Shown here in pieces: positions 36,818 to 45,485 of a DNA stretch of 64,000 nucleotides. The notes beneath the pieces were generated by a model that saw only the letters and a list, made by a program, of their open reading frames with translations, was not told the DNA's origin and made no database searches. The stretch is from Planctomycetota bacterium (GTDB lineage: Bacteria > Planctomycetota > Phycisphaerae > Phycisphaerales > SM1A02). Made by a program: the position numbers and the translations under genes. The DNA lies in contig JADFSH010000001.1 in assembly GCA_022560875.1 (NCBI GenBank), forward strand, positions 1 through 64,000, given 5' to 3'. How positions within the stretch are numbered: the stretch's first letter is position 1; each line of letters begins with the position of its first letter.

Positions 36818-36889
36818 CTACGATAGTCGGGAAAGTGCCTTATTTGGAGATTGTGGTAGTTGATGCCGTGATTATGGCCTCAGAGGTGG

Positions 36890-36918
36890 TTGAACGGCCT
36901 TCCCGATGATGCTACAGT
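36890..36918 (+). promoter_or_regulatory. Sigma-70-type promoter for rpsL-rpsG
   Basis: TTGAAC at 36890-36895 and TACAGT at 36913-36918 with an exact 17-base spacer, 34 bases before the rpsL start codon. A prediction from consensus only. Confidence 0.5.
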
Positions 36919-36952
36919 CTTCGACTCGTTTCAGCCTGGAGTAACTGTCAGT

Positions 36953-37324
36953 ATGCCTACGATCAATCAGCTTATTCGAAAACCCCGACGCACCCCCAAG
37001 GCCAAGTCCAAGGTGCGCGATCTGGAAAAATGCCCGCAGAAACGTGGTGTGTGTCTCCAGGTGAAGACGGTAACTCCTAAAAAGCCGAACTCGGCCCTGA
37101 GAAAGGTCACCCGCGTTCGCCTTTCCAATGGCAAGGAAGTCACCGCCTACATTGGCGGGGAAGGACACAACCTGCAGGAACACTCCATCGTGCTCGTTCG
37201 CGGTGGCAGGGTCCGCGACTTGCCCGGCGTTCGATACCACGTCGTTCGAGGTTCCCACGACACCCTCGGGGTCGAAGGACGCAAGCAGGGCCGCTCCAAG
37301 TACGGCACCAAGCGAGGCAAGTAA
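36953..37324 (+). CDS. rpsL: 30S ribosomal protein S12
   Basis: Decoding-centre protein, 123 residues. Highly conserved blocks: [66 protein letters not shown] and the basic C-terminus [13 protein letters not shown] 36953 is the family start, with GGAG 13 bases upstream; a longer frame to 36890 is not supported. The streptomycin-site lysines (TPKKPN and [10 protein letters not shown] region) look unchanged. Cotranscribed with rpsG 172 bases downstream. Confidence 0.97.
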
Positions 37325-37377
37325 AAAAGTTCAGCGGTCAGCCTTGCGGCGGCCCCTGAAGGTCTTGAAAATTGATT

Positions 37378-37474
37378 GGGAGCTGAATGCTCCCCTCGGC
37401 AAGTAATCGCAGTCCGATCCCCAGCCTTTTCCAGGCAGACTGCGGTGAACAGGAAGCCCCGACATCATCGGGGC
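37378..37474 (+). promoter_or_regulatory. Two hairpins in the rpsL-rpsG spacer
   Basis: GGGAGC/GCTCCC (37378-37383 with 37389-37394, loop 5) and GCCCCGA/TCGGGGC (37456-37462 with 37468-37474, loop 5). The second ends 12 bases before the AGGAG of rpsG. In E. coli protein S7 represses its own operon by binding this intercistronic region, so a similar control is possible here. Confidence 0.35.
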
Positions 37475-37496
37475 AGATGAGCCACAGGAGATACAC

Positions 37497-37991
37497 ATGG
37501 CCGGTCGCATTACAAAATCTGAACAGCAGCTTCGCCCCGATCCCCGCTTCGGAGACAAGACCCTTGCGAAGTTTATCAACTGCATCATGCATGGCGGCAA
37601 GAAATCAGTCGCCCAGCGGGTCGTTTATGACGCGCTTGATCTGATGCAGAAAAGACTCGACAAGGAGAAGCCGGAAAATCTCCCCAAAACCTCGATCGAA
37701 TTGTTTCAGAAGGCGATTAACAATGTCAGGCCTGAAGTTGAAGTTCGCTCCAAACGAGTCGGGGGTGCCAACTACCAGGTGCCCATGCAGGTCAGTTCAA
37801 AACGTCGTATGAGCCTTTGTTTCAGATGGATCATCACCGCCGCCCGCGCCGAGTCCGGCAAGCCCATGGCCCAGCGTCTGGCCCGAGAGCTTTACGACGC
37901 CGCCCGCGGTGATGGCAAGGCCATGAATATCCGCGATCAAACCCACCGCATGGCTGAAGCCAACCGAGCCTTTGCCCACTTCGCGTGGTAG
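37497..37991 (+). CDS. rpsG: 30S ribosomal protein S7
   Basis: Primary 16S rRNA-binding protein of the small-subunit head, 164 residues. Conserved DPRFGDKTLAKFIN, VRPEVEVRSKRVGGANYQVP, and the C-terminal NIRDQTHRMAEANRAFAHFAW. The ribosome site AGGAG lies 7 bases before ATG 37497. The usual next genes of the str operon (fusA, tuf) are absent: a strong terminator follows and the next gene is an E1-like enzyme. Confidence 0.97.
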   Translation: MAGRITKSEQQLRPDPRFGDKTLAKFINCIMHGGKKSVAQRVVYDALDLMQKRLDKEKPENLPKTSIELFQKAINNVRPEVEVRSKRVGGANYQVPMQVSSKRRMSLCFRWIITAARAESGKPMAQRLARELYDAARGDGKAMNIRDQTHRMAEANRAFAHFAW

Positions 37992-38025
37992 GAAGAAGCC
38001 TCGGCTTGAAATCAGGAAAATTCAG

Positions 38026-38057
38026 CCGACTGTTTGTTCAACAAACAGTCGGTTTTT
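38026..38057 (+). terminator. Rho-independent terminator after rpsG
   Basis: A perfect 11-base stem CCGACTGTTTG/CAAACAGTCGG with a 5-base loop (38026-38052), followed by five T. It closes the rpsL-rpsG transcript. Confidence 0.9.
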
Positions 38058-38091
38058 CTTGGCAAACTATCTAAAATGAATCCTTTGAGTC

Positions 38092-39225
38092 TTGGTCGTG
38101 AATGATCTTCCCGAACATCTCGAACGGTATCACCGACAGATGCTCCTGCCGGCGATTGGTGAGGCCGGCCAGCGAAAACTCCTCGCCTCTCACGCCCTTA
38201 TCGTCGGTTGCGGGGCGTTGGGGTGCTGCTGCGCCGACATCCTGGCCCGGGCGGGGGTGGGTACCATCAGCATCGTCGATCGGGATATCGTGGAATTGAC
38301 CAATCTTCAACGACAAATCCTGTTCGATGAGGATGATGCCCGTGAAGGCACGCCCAAGGCATTGGCCGCGAAGACGAAAATAGGCAAAATCAACAGTACG
38401 GTGGTCGTTCATGCCCATGTGGATGACTTCAATCAGCGCAATGCCGAGCGGTATGCCGAGGGCGCAGATATCATTCTCGATGGTCTTGACAACTTCGAGA
38501 CCCGTTATCTGCTCAATGATCTGGCGGTGGCCCAGGGGCTGCCTTATCTCTACGGGGGAGCGGTGGGGTCTCAGGGTATGAGCTTTCCCATCCTGCCCTA
38601 TCCGCGGCATCGCCGTGAAGGTGTGCGCGGCGGTATCCGATGGTCCGAAGATCAGGCCACGCCCTGTTTGCGGTGTGTTTTTCCCGAACCACCTCCCCCC
38701 GGCTCCAGCCAGACCTGCGACACTGCCGGAGTACTCGGTCCCCTCGTGAACCAGATCGCATCCCACCAGGCCGCCGAGGCGATCAAGTTGATGAGCGGCA
38801 ATCTTGACGCCATCGACCGTTCCATGCTGACCATCGACATCTGGGAGAACGAGACGAAGCGACTCAATCTCGCCGGAGCCTTCAAAAGCGGGCAATGCCC
38901 CTGTTGCGGCAGAGGGGAATTTGATTATCTGGAAGGGACTTCGGGTAGTATCACCACGTCTCTGTGTGGTCGAAACGCTGTTCAGATCACCCCGGATGAG
39001 GCTTCTGACGGCTTGATCGATCTTGCTGCCTTGGCCGATCGTCTGGCCCCCCATGGCACGTTCACCAGCAATCCCCACCTGTTGCGGGGGATTCTTCGGG
39101 CGGAAATCGGCAATGATGGGAACCCGATGGAGTTGACCTTGTTTGTAAACGGTAGGGCGATCATCAAGGGCACGAATGAGCCTGATGCCGCACGGATAAT
39201 TTACGCGAAATACGTGGGATCATGA
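38092..39225 (+). CDS. E1-like adenylyltransferase, ThiF/MoeB type
   Basis: Activates the C-terminus of a ubiquitin-like sulfur carrier (ThiS or MoaD) by adenylation. Seen: RYHRQMLLPAIGEAGQ, nucleotide site VGCGALGCCCADIL, DRDIVELTNLQRQILF, the active-site Cys region TCDTAGVLGP, and a zinc site made of CLRC and CPCC. The C-terminal ~100 residues, ending ALFVNGR-like RAIIKGT, are common in ThiF/MoeB proteins of this group. No thi or moa gene is adjacent, so the carrier cannot be named. The start is unsettled: TTG 38092 or GTG 38098, neither with a ribosome site. Confidence 0.88.
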   Translation: MVVNDLPEHLERYHRQMLLPAIGEAGQRKLLASHALIVGCGALGCCCADILARAGVGTISIVDRDIVELTNLQRQILFDEDDAREGTPKALAAKTKIGKINSTVVVHAHVDDFNQRNAERYAEGADIILDGLDNFETRYLLNDLAVAQGLPYLYGGAVGSQGMSFPILPYPRHRREGVRGGIRWSEDQATPCLRCVFPEPPPPGSSQTCDTAGVLGPLVNQIASHQAAEAIKLMSGNLDAIDRSMLTIDIWENETKRLNLAGAFKSGQCPCCGRGEFDYLEGTSGSITTSLCGRNAVQITPDEASDGLIDLAALADRLAPHGTFTSNPHLLRGILRAEIGNDGNPMELTLFVNGRAIIKGTNEPDAARIIYAKYVGS

Positions 39226-39363
39226 AGCCATTTTTTCGGTCTCCCTCGTCAGAGGTATCAGACCAGCGCATCCTATCGAGGGGATCATCCGATCCTTAAA
39301 GATTCTCAGCCCATTCCGGTCGGGATGGGATTCGGTTGATTGAAATCTTGAAAAGGGCCTGCC

Positions 39364-42060
39364 ATGTCCAGATTCCAGCCAATGTTTTCTCATTTTGATT
39401 TCCCCGCCGGGAGCCGACTTCGGAAGGTATTGATGTCCTGCTGCTGGTTGGCCTTCCTGCTGGTGATATCTGCTCCGGCGTTGGCTCAGGGTACATCAGG
39501 GGCGTTTCCCGATCCGATTTCCACCCGTGAGCTCGAACGATATTGTAATCGGCTGAACATGAGCGATCAGCAGCGACAGGGAATCGGGCTGGCTCACGAT
39601 CAATACCTGGAGGCCTTTCGAGTCCTGCGTGACGGTTTAATTGAGGAATTCCTCGATGAAAACGGGGCAGGAGCAGGGTTCAGCCTCAATTTCAGGGCCG
39701 ATCGCAAGGATCTCGAAAAGACCGCGCGGAAGCGCGAAGATCTGTTTAATCGCATCCGGTCACTGGACAATCGTTTCTTCGACCAGATTCAGACGGTGTT
39801 GACTGATGACCAGTTAGCTCACATGTCGCGGGTCAAGCAGGCCCGGCAACGAGTACGTCATCGCTCGGGCCTGACCCGCATGGCGGGGGCTATGAATCCT
39901 GGAGCGTCCGTGGATCTCAGCGAACTGTACGACGATTTGAACCTGCTTCTGAAGGATGTTACAACCACTGATCCCATCCTCTGGCAATATGAACGCAACC
40001 TGACAGTTGCCGTGCGCGAATTGTTTGAAAAATCATCAAGACTTCAAATCGACATTCAAAAGAATATGGAGGCCGAGGGATTCGATGGCAATTCCCCTCC
40101 ATCCAGCCGCGATGACCGGGAAAGCTATGTCGGGGCGATCATGACGGCCTTCAGCACCCTTAACGCTCGACTGAGTGAGCTGTCAGCCAAGATCAGTGAA
40201 CTGAACAACCGGAATCTCAATGTGATTACCCAGATGCTTCCCAGAGATGCGGCGTGGCAATTCAGGAACGAATACTACGATCGTGCCTATCCGAACCTTC
40301 CCTCGGGCCGGGGGGCCGCGGGACGACGTTTCGACATCATTGAGAAAATGAAGGATATCACGGTTGCGCAGCGTCAAGAAATTGATGAAGCCGAAACCCT
40401 GTTTCTCGATGAACTCGGGCGGTTGACCAAACGCATGGTCGAGCATGTCGATAACAACCGACCTCAGAGAGGGGGCATGATGGTTCGCTTCACATCCTCC
40501 GGGGAAGATGAGGAAGTGGAGAAAGAACGGGAAAAGTACGAATCGAAGCTTGATGAAATGAGGGAACGACGTACCAGACTGATCGATCAGACCGTGGTCA
40601 GGCTCAGCACCATTCTCGGCGAGGAAATGACGCAACATCTTGATCGGCGTATTGCTGCGACAGAACCGGATGCTGTGGAAGTCCAAGAAGGTGCGGTTGA
40701 GATTTTCGCCATCTCTGTTGCCGGCGGTGGGGGCGGGGATTTTCAGATGCTGAACTTCCGCAGTATCGGAAATCTCGCAACCTTGGAAGAGAATGATGAG
40801 GAGGAGTCGTCGGATCAATACATCCCCGGACCAATCAGCCGACGCGATCTGAAGAAATATGCCCGTTATCTCAAAGTGGGTGAGGATCAGGCATCCATCA
40901 TTGACAGCCTGCATGACGACTACATGGAGAGTTTTCGACTTCTGCAAGACACGCAAATCAAGGCCATACGCGATCGGGAGCGCAATCTCTGGTCGCTCGA
41001 TTCCGAAGACGGTGACATCAGCATTCCCTCCAAGAGCGACATTGAGAATTTGTACCGACTCCGGCGCAGCGCCCTGAGGTCAATAGAAGCCCTCGATGAG
41101 TCGTTTCTCAATGATCTGGAGACGGTCGTACTCAATGAAACCGGAACTACAGCTATGCAGCGAGTGAAGCTGGCCCGGAAACGATCGATTTACATGCGGG
41201 TAAGGGATACCGGCGGATTTCGAATGTTCGGAGGCGGCGGAGGCAGACGCGTGATGAGTTTCATCGGCTTGGGTGGGGACTCGTCCGGCGAATCCGTCGT
41301 GGACCTTTCTGGTCTCGTGGATGAGCTTGCACTCGGCGACGCCGAACTCGCAAAGACCGATCCGATCCTCAATGATTATGAGCAGACCATTACCTCCCAG
41401 TTTCAGAAAGCCTTTGAGAGTTCCATGCGGATGGATGAAGCCATGGATGGTATTCGTGCGGAATCCATGACCGTCAGCGGAAATGGCAGGCGCCGACAAG
41501 TCAACATTAGTGCGGGCGGGATGCGAAATGCGATGCAAACCGATGGTCGGACCAGCCGGGAAGCCAGGAAAGCAATCGTGGAACTCAATCGCATTACCCT
41601 CCAGAAGCTGGCTCAGGTTCTGCCCAGTGAATCAATGGATCGTTTGCGGGATGTTTACAACCGTCGATCGTTCCCGGACATCTTCAATGACCCGAAGTCG
41701 GCGCGACACATCATTGATGCCGTGCTGGCCCAGGAGGATCTGACTCCCGCCCAGCGAATGGCCGTTCAGGAGATCGCCATGGATTATCGCAGCCGCTATC
41801 AGGAGCTGAGCAACCAGATGGTGGATCTGAAGATCAGCCAGCCCGTTCCCGGCAACGATGACAATTTCGGCCGGATAAACTTCCAGGCCATGCAGCAGCA
41901 GCAACGCGGCATGGAGAAGATTCGCTTTGATCGCAATGATCTGAGTGACAAGACCAGGAACCAGATTCGTAATGCTTTGGGTGAGGAAATTCGCGAAAGA
42001 CTCCGGGAACTCTTCGAGCAGAAAGAGCCGGAGTCCGGAGCCTTCCACATCGGCGGCTGA
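39364..42060 (+). CDS. Large secreted protein of unknown family with an internal duplication
   Basis: 898 residues, no recognised domain. A signal peptide (VLMSCCWLAFLLVISAPALAQ) ends at ~42. The rest is two homologous halves, about 49-480 and 485-898. Matching landmarks are PDPISTRELERYCNRL and PGPISRRDLKKYARYL; HDQYLEAFRVL and HDDYMESFRLL; SLDNRFFDQIQTVL and ALDESFLNDLETVV; TDPILWQYE and TDPILNDYE; and NRNLNVITQMLP and NRITLQKLAQVLP. It is helical, rich in Arg/Glu/Asp, and has LTxxQR-type motifs recalling Spy/CpxP periplasmic proteins, but the resemblance is loose. A Gly-rich loop (GGGGRRV) lies in the second half only. Confidence 0.75.
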   Translation: MSRFQPMFSHFDFPAGSRLRKVLMSCCWLAFLLVISAPALAQGTSGAFPDPISTRELERYCNRLNMSDQQRQGIGLAHDQYLEAFRVLRDGLIEEFLDENGAGAGFSLNFRADRKDLEKTARKREDLFNRIRSLDNRFFDQIQTVLTDDQLAHMSRVKQARQRVRHRSGLTRMAGAMNPGASVDLSELYDDLNLLLKDVTTTDPILWQYERNLTVAVRELFEKSSRLQIDIQKNMEAEGFDGNSPPSSRDDRESYVGAIMTAFSTLNARLSELSAKISELNNRNLNVITQMLPRDAAWQFRNEYYDRAYPNLPSGRGAAGRRFDIIEKMKDITVAQRQEIDEAETLFLDELGRLTKRMVEHVDNNRPQRGGMMVRFTSSGEDEEVEKEREKYESKLDEMRERRTRLIDQTVVRLSTILGEEMTQHLDRRIAATEPDAVEVQEGAVEIFAISVAGGGGGDFQMLNFRSIGNLATLEENDEEESSDQYIPGPISRRDLKKYARYLKVGEDQASIIDSLHDDYMESFRLLQDTQIKAIRDRERNLWSLDSEDGDISIPSKSDIENLYRLRRSALRSIEALDESFLNDLETVVLNETGTTAMQRVKLARKRSIYMRVRDTGGFRMFGGGGGRRVMSFIGLGGDSSGESVVDLSGLVDELALGDAELAKTDPILNDYEQTITSQFQKAFESSMRMDEAMDGIRAESMTVSGNGRRRQVNISAGGMRNAMQTDGRTSREARKAIVELNRITLQKLAQVLPSESMDRLRDVYNRRSFPDIFNDPKSARHIIDAVLAQEDLTPAQRMAVQEIAMDYRSRYQELSNQMVDLKISQPVPGNDDNFGRINFQAMQQQQRGMEKIRFDRNDLSDKTRNQIRNALGEEIRERLRELFEQKEPESGAFHIGG

Positions 42061-42111
42061 GAAAACATCGCACTGATCCGTCATCGACTCATGCGCCGCG
42101 AAGGGCGGGCG

Positions 42112-42822
42112 TCATGTCTTTTCGCTGATTAACGTGAAATGCTGCAAGAGGTGGCTCCGGCAGGTCGGTTTTTTCAGGTCGGCCCGGCGGGCCAGTGCGA
42201 TGGCTTCCCGCCGGGTAAATCCCATCGCCACGCTCACCACTTCGTCATGCTTGACCATTTTCGGCGCGCCGAGCGTGAGCAGACGCACTCCGATTTGTCC
42301 CGCGACCCCCCGCAACTGATCATTCCAGATCACGGCTCGCGTCGATAGTCGGTCCATGATCCGCAATACGGTCATGACTTCTATATCGCAGAGATGATGG
42401 AGAAACATGCCGGCGTGGGCGTAGTCAAAGGAACCCGGCTCGAAGTGATCCATGAGTCGTAATGCGTTCGCAATCACAAGCTTAATCTTTATTTGATCGC
42501 CGATAAATTCCCGGGCGATATCCAGGATGGTGGCATGAACATCGATGCCGGTGACATGAAGCTCGTGCCCGGTTTGTTTCGCCCAGTTGACTGCCGCGAG
42601 CGGAATGTCCGCTGATCCTGTCCCCACATCGATCAGCCGTATCGGTTGGTCCTTCGGCCAGCCGGGAGCCTGACGCTGAAGATACGAGACCAGTGCCCGA
42701 GTCCTGCCCGACCTGAGATTCATCCCTCGAAGATACGCCATCGCACGGGCCAGTTCGCTTCGATCCGCGGTGGGATCCTCCATCAACTTGGGGATCAATT
42801 TCCGCTGAGTCAGGTGAGCCAT
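42112..42822 (-). CDS. SAM-dependent methyltransferase domain protein
   Basis: 236 residues from ATG 42822: SAM motif LIDVGTGSADIPLAAVNW, acidic GIDVHATIL, then FDYAHAGMFLHHL. The N-terminal LIPKLMEDPTADRSELARAM is typical of a methyltransferase group seen with type III polyketide/isoprenoid genes. The open frame runs to 42957, overlapping the divergent panB start; those extra 45 residues look non-coding. Substrate unknown. Confidence 0.78.
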   Translation of the reverse strand: MAHLTQRKLIPKLMEDPTADRSELARAMAYLRGMNLRSGRTRALVSYLQRQAPGWPKDQPIRLIDVGTGSADIPLAAVNWAKQTGHELHVTGIDVHATILDIAREFIGDQIKIKLVIANALRLMDHFEPGSFDYAHAGMFLHHLCDIEVMTVLRIMDRLSTRAVIWNDQLRGVAGQIGVRLLTLGAPKMVKHDEVVSVAMGFTRREAIALARRADLKKPTCRSHLLQHFTLISEKT

Positions 42823-42939
42823 GGAGGGAGGATACGCTTCGTTCGCGGTAATCCACGTTTTTGAACCGGTAATCCACTCCGGGCAAGGTCTTGAGGACCG
42901 TTTTTGGCTTGCCCGGATTGACCCCGATACACTACCCGC

Positions 42940-43839
42940 ATGACCAGCAGCATTCATGAGCCCCCGCTGAGCCCAGAAGCGTTAACAACTCAGAAAGCTC
43001 AGCCTGAAAAACCAGTCGAGCGCAAGCCGGTCACCCTGCGAACCATCAGTAAGTACAAGGAGCAAGGAGAGCGATTTGCCTGCCTGACGTGCTATGACTA
43101 CACCACCGCTCAATGGCTCGAAAAGGCCGGGGTGCCCTTGCTGCTGGTTGGTGACACGGCGGCGGAGATGATCCTGGGCCTGCCCGGAACCATCTACGCT
43201 CCTCTCGACTTTCTCATCACCATTACCGCCGCCGTCAAACGAGGCGCTCCCCACACTCTGGTCATGGGCGACATGCCTTTCATGAGCTATCAAGTGGACG
43301 AGGCAGAAGGCATTCGCAACGCCGGTCGTTTTATCACCGAAGGCCGAGCGGACATCGTCAAGCTCGAAGTCGATCACACGTATGCCACGTTGATTGAGAA
43401 GATTGCCCGGGCCGGCATCCCCGTGGTGGCACACATCGGTACCCGGCCGCAAACCGTCAAAATGCACGGGGGGTATCGCTCTTCGGGACGCAAGGCTGTC
43501 GACGCCCAGCGACTCGTTGACGATGCCATCGCGATGGAGGAAGCCGGTGCGAACATGCTGCTCATCGAGGCGGTGCCCAACGAAGTCTCCCAGCGGATCG
43601 TGGAGAAAACGAGCATCCCACTTATCGGATGTGGAGGAGGCCCGGCCTGTCACGGCCAGATTGTGGTGCTCCAGGATCTTTTGGGCCTTTCGTCCTGGCA
43701 GCCATCTTTTGCCCATCCCGTTGCCCATCTGGGAGAGCAACTCATGGATGCGGCGAGTCAATGGATTGAGCTTGTCCGTGCATCCAATCTCGGCCCTCAT
43801 CCATATACCATGAAGGATATTGAGTTGGACAAGTTCTGA
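42940..43839 (+). CDS. panB: 3-methyl-2-oxobutanoate hydroxymethyltransferase
   Basis: First step of pantothenate (coenzyme A) synthesis, using methylenetetrahydrofolate to convert 2-oxoisovalerate to ketopantoate. Seen: LTCYDYTTAQWLEKAG, VGDTAAEMILG, the metal-ligand region VMGDMPFMSYQ, KLEV, HIGTRPQTVKMHGGY and the catalytic Glu in LIEAVPNEVS. 299 residues, with a ~25-residue Pro/Glu-rich N-terminal extension. panC is not adjacent. The start lies next to the divergent methyltransferase. Confidence 0.95.
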   Translation: MTSSIHEPPLSPEALTTQKAQPEKPVERKPVTLRTISKYKEQGERFACLTCYDYTTAQWLEKAGVPLLLVGDTAAEMILGLPGTIYAPLDFLITITAAVKRGAPHTLVMGDMPFMSYQVDEAEGIRNAGRFITEGRADIVKLEVDHTYATLIEKIARAGIPVVAHIGTRPQTVKMHGGYRSSGRKAVDAQRLVDDAIAMEEAGANMLLIEAVPNEVSQRIVEKTSIPLIGCGGGPACHGQIVVLQDLLGLSSWQPSFAHPVAHLGEQLMDAASQWIELVRASNLGPHPYTMKDIELDKF

Positions 43840-43973
43840 GTTGTTTCCGATGGTTGTTTAAGAGGAGGATTGATCATTCCTCGAAAGACAATCCGCCCGG
43901 ATGGTGAATTTCCGCCTGCCTGATCCAGGACCATGAGTTTCGAGATCAGGCGTTTCAGTGAGAGGATGAAGAC

Positions 43974-45485
43974 ATGCAGAACATGCCACAGAAGTTGAGC
44001 GGCTACGGTCCAAGCCTGATCGTTCTCGCGACTGCCATGCTTGTGCTGTTTGTCGGGCCCAGCGCCGTACGCAAGCTCACCTATGAAAGCACTCGCACTC
44101 AGATCATTCAGGCCAGCAATCGGCTCGAAGGCAATAACGTCCTGGAGCAGATTAATCAGGCTTATCGTGATATCGCCATGATGGTGGAACCATCGGTAGT
44201 GCATATCAGCGTGCAGCATCGGATTCGGGGAAGGACCGTGGCCATCTCTTCCGGTTCAGGATGGATTTTTGACGAGAAAGGGCATGTCGTCACCAATTAC
44301 CATGTGATAAGAGACGCCGAGCGTATTGATGTTCAGCTCGACGCGGGCGAACTGCGCGTAGCGGATGTCATCGGCTATGACGACACGACTGATATCGCGG
44401 TCCTGAAGATTGCCGAAGGCCGCCTGCATCCCGCTCAACTTGCCGATCCCCAGGAAGCCGTGCAACAGGGCGACTTGGTGTTCGCCTTCGGGTCACCCTT
44501 CGATTTTCGTTTTTCCATGTCGTCGGGTGTCATATCGGGCAAGGGGCGCTCCGTGGGTGTCATTCGTAACCAGGCCGGTGGCAATGCCGGGTACGAAAAC
44601 TTCATTCAGGTTGATGCCGCCATCAATCCCGGCAATTCCGGTGGCCCGCTGACCAACTTTAGAGGCCAGGTTATCGGGATGAACACTGCTATTGCCACCG
44701 GACGGCAAAAACCTCGCAGGGGAGAAAGGCAGTTCGAGGAAGGGCAGTTCGCGGGTATCGGTCTGGCTATCCCGCTGGAGATGATTCTCCCCGTCGTCGA
44801 GCAACTCATCGAAAATGGATTTGTCATCAAGGGCTTTCTCGGAGTGAATCTCCTTCCGCTCGAAGGGTCCCTGGCCGACAACTATCGTCGAAAAGGCTTC
44901 AACGGCCAGGGCGTCGTGCTGGAAAGAGTCATCAAAGGTGATCCGGCAGATCGGGCCGGACTCAAGATGGGGGATGTCATCACCCACGTCAACGGTCGAG
45001 TGATGGCTACCATTCCCCAACTCCGGTCTTTCATCTCTTCGATCCTTCCCGGCCAGATCGTCACCATCGATTATTGGAGATTCGACCCGAAGCGAGACCT
45101 CGGTGAAAGTATGTCCACCACCGTGAAGCTCGATCGGCTCGATACCATACTCACGGATGGCTCGATACCTCCTGATCAGCCTCGCCATGAGCTGAGGCAG
45201 CTCGGTATCAACGCCATGGAGACAAGCTCTCGAAAACTGGCAAGTCAATTCAATGCGGAGTACCGAGCGGGAGTTATGATCAAGGAGATCGATCCCGACT
45301 CGATGCTCAGCCGACAGGCGGAAGCTGGCTGGACCATCGTCAGCGTCAATGACATTCCAGTGCGCGATATCGATGATTTCTTTGAAGCCTTGGGAAATTT
45401 CAATCTCCTGTCGGGCATCAAACTCGATCTCATCGATACTGAAGGCAATTACCAACAGGCGACCGTGGGTTCGGTAAGGCCCTGA
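43974..45485 (+). CDS. HtrA/DegP-type serine protease with two PDZ domains
   Basis: Periplasmic, membrane-anchored quality-control protease. An N-terminal helix at ~13-30 serves as anchor or signal. The trypsin-like domain has the triad His110 (TNYHVI), Asp140 (DTTDIAVL) and Ser222 (GNSGGPL). PDZ1 (about 285-380, GFLGVNLLPL and ADRAGLKMGDVI) and a second PDZ-like domain (~405-500, GVMIKEIDPDSMLSR) follow. GAGAGG before ATG 43974. 503 residues is normal for a two-PDZ HtrA. Confidence 0.92.
   Translation: MQNMPQKLSGYGPSLIVLATAMLVLFVGPSAVRKLTYESTRTQIIQASNRLEGNNVLEQINQAYRDIAMMVEPSVVHISVQHRIRGRTVAISSGSGWIFDEKGHVVTNYHVIRDAERIDVQLDAGELRVADVIGYDDTTDIAVLKIAEGRLHPAQLADPQEAVQQGDLVFAFGSPFDFRFSMSSGVISGKGRSVGVIRNQAGGNAGYENFIQVDAAINPGNSGGPLTNFRGQVIGMNTAIATGRQKPRRGERQFEEGQFAGIGLAIPLEMILPVVEQLIENGFVIKGFLGVNLLPLEGSLADNYRRKGFNGQGVVLERVIKGDPADRAGLKMGDVITHVNGRVMATIPQLRSFISSILPGQIVTIDYWRFDPKRDLGESMSTTVKLDRLDTILTDGSIPPDQPRHELRQLGINAMETSSRKLASQFNAEYRAGVMIKEIDPDSMLSRQAEAGWTIVSVNDIPVRDIDDFFEALGNFNLLSGIKLDLIDTEGNYQQATVGSVRP

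Follow-up and report, generated by a model that had tools for sequence, protein, structure and literature searches.

What does gene X encode, an 898-residue open reading frame in the window (the whole 64,000-nucleotide stretch of planctomycete-type DNA analysed here), and does its product, P0001, belong to a known family? A preliminary description had taken P0001 for an exported, helical and highly charged protein built from two homologous halves, with no known domain and thus a candidate new family. The reading frame is present exactly as described, with an ATG start, a TGA stop and a plausible AAAAGGG-type ribosome-binding site 6 nt 5′ of the ATG. Because intact-frame homologs at 25–51% identity occur in 32 of 41 related genomes, the gene is, judging by this conservation, under protein-level selection, and a chance ORF is excluded. 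The window's own genome carries further paralogs, both six-repeat (838–864 residues) and shorter.

The hydrophobic N-terminal stretch of P0001 ends in SAPALA/QG (the slash marking the predicted cleavage), and Q42 is nearly invariant across 31 homologs. The AxA/Q site of the predicted signal peptide, read from the sequence, is thus kept in homologs, in line with the proposed export, and would place the mature protein in the periplasm. The high charge is also borne out, with 31% D/E/K/R, a net charge of -23 and a pI of 5.2 for the mature protein (whole-chain values). Among the six-repeat members, the pI lies between 4.5 and 6.4 in 30 of 31 and is 8.0 in one.

The two halves are homologous, and the landmarks from which this had been proposed are real. 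In a single BLASTP comparison (E = 1e-28), 25% of 425 aligned positions are identical, and hhalign, using profiles from the 31 six-repeat homologs, aligns the halves over 365 columns with 100% probability and an E-value of 5.7e-45. The two-half picture overlooked a further level: three domains make up each half. Like-repeat profile pairs match best (A1-A2 99.6%, B1-B2 99.5% and C1-C2 98.8% by hhalign), and P0001 therefore comprises six repeats in the order A-B-C, twice (Table 1). The other repeat pairs mostly score 85–97%, the lowest being B1-A2 at 32% and A2-C2 at 60%, with controls in which one partner was reversed at 5% or less. The A-B-C block arose first and was then duplicated. Within repeat A1, the motifs HDxYxxxFxxLRD and RVxxxRxR are conserved.

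Table 1. Features of gene X and its surroundings (window coordinates; residues are those of P0001).
Feature	Position	Strand	Basis
Conserved gene-order region around X	36872-45485		
Intrinsic-terminator-like hairpin after rpsG	38024..38054	+	14-pair stem, T tract; consensus match only
ThiF/MoeB-type E1 enzyme, upstream of X	38092..39225	+	Pfam ThiF 2.4e-70; synteny
Gene X, encoding P0001 (898 residues, exported, six repeats)	39364..42060	+	ORF, translation, homologs
Predicted signal peptide, residues 1-41, cleavage APALA/QG	39364..39486	+	Sequence; Q42 in homologs
Repeat A1, residues 48-172, LTXXQ-type	39505..39879	+	HMM match 61-170; hhalign 97%; domain model
Repeat B1, about residues 173-313	39880..40302	+	hhalign to LTXXQ 79%; four-helix pattern in model
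Repeat C1, residues 314-438	40303..40677	+	hhalign to LTXXQ 95%
Acidic inter-half linker, residues 439-482	40678..40809	+	pLDDT <50 for 435-481; net -9
Repeat A2, residues 483-625, conserved LHDDYxxxF	40810..41238	+	hhalign: LTXXQ 91%, A1 99.6%
Repeat B2, residues 638-771	41275..41676	+	hhalign: LTXXQ 70% (weakest), B1 99.5%
Repeat C2, residues 772-890, with DLTPAQR	41677..42033	+	HMM match 792-890; hhalign 97%; L035 passes Pfam cut-off here
panB, downstream of X	42940..43839	+	Pfam Pantoate_transf 8.1e-84; synteny
HtrA/DegP-type protease, downstream of X	43974..45485	+	Pfam Trypsin_2 and PDZ; synteny

The repeats are divergent domains of the LTXXQ superfamily (Spy/CpxP/ZraP/CnrX), an assignment that is well supported because profile, homolog-scan and fold comparisons agree on it. 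In single-sequence scans, P0001 lies below every Pfam and NCBIfam cut-off; its second half scores 10.9 bits against Pfam LTXXQ (PF07813), for which the curated cut-off is 24.3. Sub-threshold matches of P0001 to AAA_lid_7, Effector_1 and BAR_3, from the Pfam, NCBIfam and PDB searches, lack support from any homolog and were dismissed as chance. Pfam LTXXQ is matched by 10 of the 31 homologs (best 4.8e-5), the matched repeat, where given, being A1, A2 or C2. L035, one of these homologs, reaches 24.4 bits at repeat C2, just above the curated cut-off. E. coli Spy and CpxP were combined with 15 LTXXQ proteins encoded in genomes of this phylum, one of which, a sub-threshold LTXXQ protein, comes from the window's own genome. 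The resulting profile matches all six repeats by hhalign: A1 at 97.3%, B1 at 78.6%, C1 at 95.3%, A2 at 91.3%, B2 at 70.2% and C2 at 96.6%. The corresponding HMM finds residues 61-170 (3e-6) and 792-890 (0.003) of P0001, both for Z=1000. Applied to 36 proteins (the 31 members with six repeats, four three-domain singles and L089, a two-domain protein that is also in the profile), it gives 56 domain matches at i-E<0.1 forward versus 0 reversed. The LTxxQ motif of the helix caps is clear in A1 (LTDDQ), C1 (DITVAQR) and C2 (DLTPAQR) and eroded in B1, A2 and B2. Among the repeats, the evidence is weakest for B1 and B2 (70–79%). Searched against PDB sequences, the A1 profile matches ZraP best (E = 0.0058), barely ahead of the coiled-coil background.

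Might this likeness be convergent, with P0001 a new family of helical repeats whose resemblance to LTXXQ comes from shared amphipathic helical hairpins? The scores of P0001 under all Pfam and NCBIfam cut-offs and the weak Foldseek E-values given below would allow it. We nevertheless regard convergence as very improbable: reversed controls reach at most 5.8% against the LTXXQ profile, a decoy profile of Skp/OmpH, another exported helical chaperone, reaches at most 2.9% against the repeats, the alignments of 83–105 columns span whole domains in register, and L035 passes the Pfam cut-off. P0001 thus matches a characterised family at the domain level, contrary to the earlier view that it held no known domain, and the proposal of a new family does not stand at the superfamily level. 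Novelty remains in the six-domain architecture and in its confinement to a lineage; the domain type was already known.

The AlphaFold2 model of the full protein (pLDDT 80.6, pTM 0.78) is almost purely helical, as had been expected, and shows six times over a pattern of one short helix followed by two long ones and then another. With the full 898-residue model as query, Foldseek returned nothing from the PDB at E<=0.001. Repeat A1 modelled alone (pLDDT 90.2, pTM 0.83) has helices at 9-18, 23-56, 69-98 and 103-122. Its top fold matches in the PDB are mostly CnrX, with probabilities up to 0.93 and a TM-score of about 0.61, and also include ZraP (3lay) at a TM-score of 0.70 and 3.0 Å. The Foldseek E-values are weak, the best being 0.39, as is usual for small helical domains, and on these matches repeat A1 is predicted to have the four-helix fold of Spy, CnrX and ZraP.

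A long helical tandem array with a confident global arrangement, as the pTM of the full model suggests, could also be a structural rod, in which the six repeats form a spectrin-like envelope scaffold without client-binding chaperone activity. The acidic surface would suit such a role, as would the few invariant residues in the alignment of the 31 six-repeat homologs. We think this unlikely, as both sequence and fold comparison favour the Spy/CpxP/CnrX superfamily over spectrin, and the polar motifs HDxYxxxFxxLRD and RxxR are conserved beyond the needs of a plain rod.

Members of the superfamily differ in role, CnrX being a metal sensor and CpxP a kinase regulator, and homology therefore leaves the function of X unfixed. 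CnrX (PF13801, Metal_resist) has just one domain, which carries a defined metal site, and CpxP, part of the matching LTXXQ profile, is a single domain encoded beside the kinase system CpxAR. Both have partners, CpxA for CpxP and CnrY for CnrX. By analogy, P0001 might be an envelope stress or metal sensor-regulator whose repeats recognise either a ligand or a misfolded protein and also bind a membrane partner, a reading for which the CnrX fold matches, a nearby htrA gene and one weak Metal_resist match in a paralog can be cited. We doubt it: mature P0001 contains only eight His and one Cys in 857 residues, and the conserved neighbours of X, among them thiF, panB and htrA, include no sensor kinase gene and no ECF sigma or anti-sigma gene. 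ZraP, the zinc resistance-associated protein, is likewise a single domain, assembled into a decamer, in contrast to the covalent, His- and Cys-poor array of X.

Spy from E. coli (PF07813) shares with P0001 export, an all-helical domain of predicted four-helix type and, clearly in A1, C1 and C2, LTxxQ-type helix caps, but has one domain of about 140 residues, and its dimer forms a basic cradle where P0001 has six domains per chain and is acidic. The cradle is periplasmic and binds unfolded clients independently of ATP (PMC8144458). Carrying this role over from Spy (PMC8144458), we propose, as an evenly balanced judgement, that X encodes an exported, non-enzymatic six-domain LTXXQ protein that would serve as a multivalent ATP-independent periplasmic scaffold, most likely a holdase chaperone. 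After export, the helical hairpin domains, which form separate dimers in other members, would act while covalently joined, one molecule offering six protein-binding surfaces and the two halves a built-in dimer. Computation shows the six repeats, their superfamily, the ancient block duplication and the conserved gene position; the periplasmic location, client binding, multivalency and this intramolecular dimer are inferred. Paralogs within a genome may take different client sets or work under different conditions. More tentatively, the family could be a lineage-specific, paralog-rich group of large, acidic, ATP-independent envelope chaperones of covalent six-domain Spy/CpxP fold, in which an ancestral three-domain unit was fused into a one-chain obligate heterodimer. 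Spy captures clients via a basic concave surface. A basic client-binding surface is not indicated for X, whose mature pI of 5.2 compares with 9.5 for E. coli Spy (whole chain); since X is acidic, Spy's electrostatic capture is not simply transferable.

The gene order around X is conserved in many genera and runs purL, rnhA, rpsL, rpsG, thiF, X, methyltransferase, panB, htrA and an ABC transporter gene, with X sometimes doubled in its slot. Unlike the classic str operon, the window region does not have fusA and tuf following rpsG. Immediately behind rpsG stands a strong terminator-like hairpin, which suggests, from its sequence, that thiF and X may be set apart from the ribosomal genes. Promoter-like sites occur at chance level only, and Rfam gave no match between 36 and 46 kb. 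At nine loci, the window included (at least eight others), htrA lies no more than three genes from X, a proximity that fits envelope quality control. A strong functional linkage to HtrA is not claimed, because conservation at this site is just as high for unrelated genes, namely thiF, panB and the ribosomal ones.

Within the order, 138 of 301 genomes searched contain homologs of P0001. Most belong to f1, the family of the window itself, and to f2, and a few to f3 and f4; in the related genomes searched, f5 and f6 gave none. Phylum-wide, across 246 genomes, matches were confined to the same order; both searches scored few candidates per genome, which makes these absences soft. P0001 itself found nothing when used as query for related loci elsewhere, and a close homolog from another genus found four named Planctomycetota MAGs. 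Genomes carry several paralogs of the six-domain form. So far, this arrangement is known from a single order of planctomycete-type bacteria, and it appears to be undescribed; the open-access literature held nothing on LTXXQ in planctomycetes or on CpxP in Phycisphaera.

In family f2, the three-domain block occurs as single genes in tandem. There are triple tandems (L046:8196-12298, L047:7363-11982 and L067:7435-11438), and f2 also has a second tandem, a pair, of such singles. The triple tandems have panD and glycosyltransferase genes nearby, as well as type II secretion genes: in L047, GspE and GspF genes directly follow the tandem, and in L046 a gene for the pseudopilin GspG is some 3 kb away. 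In an unrooted tree of 78 half-units, N-terminal and C-terminal halves are almost completely apart, and the f2 singles form one clade between them, although several placements are long-branch and unsure. The simplest reading would be that the six-domain forms go back to a single old duplication-fusion in their ancestor and that the f2 gene tandems are independent of it.

Spy, CpxP and ZraP have been studied as small oligomers. If the proposed reading is true, the six-domain chain and its tandem three-domain relatives in a sister family show how the fold can be elaborated into large binding arrays, and the series of one, three and six domains offers a testable effect of valency on ATP-independent chaperoning. 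The six-domain family also accounts for several hypothetical genes per genome in a planctomycete-type order.

The exported protein L089 (L089:1111-2166), from another genome of the phylum, also carries LTXXQ domains in tandem, two with strong Pfam-type scores where P0001 has six divergent ones; LTXXQ duplication is therefore not unique to the six-domain family. At L034:4664-7206, a second adjacent copy of X is present as two overlapping ORFs of 215 and 654 residues, possibly the result of a frameshift in the gene or in the assembly.
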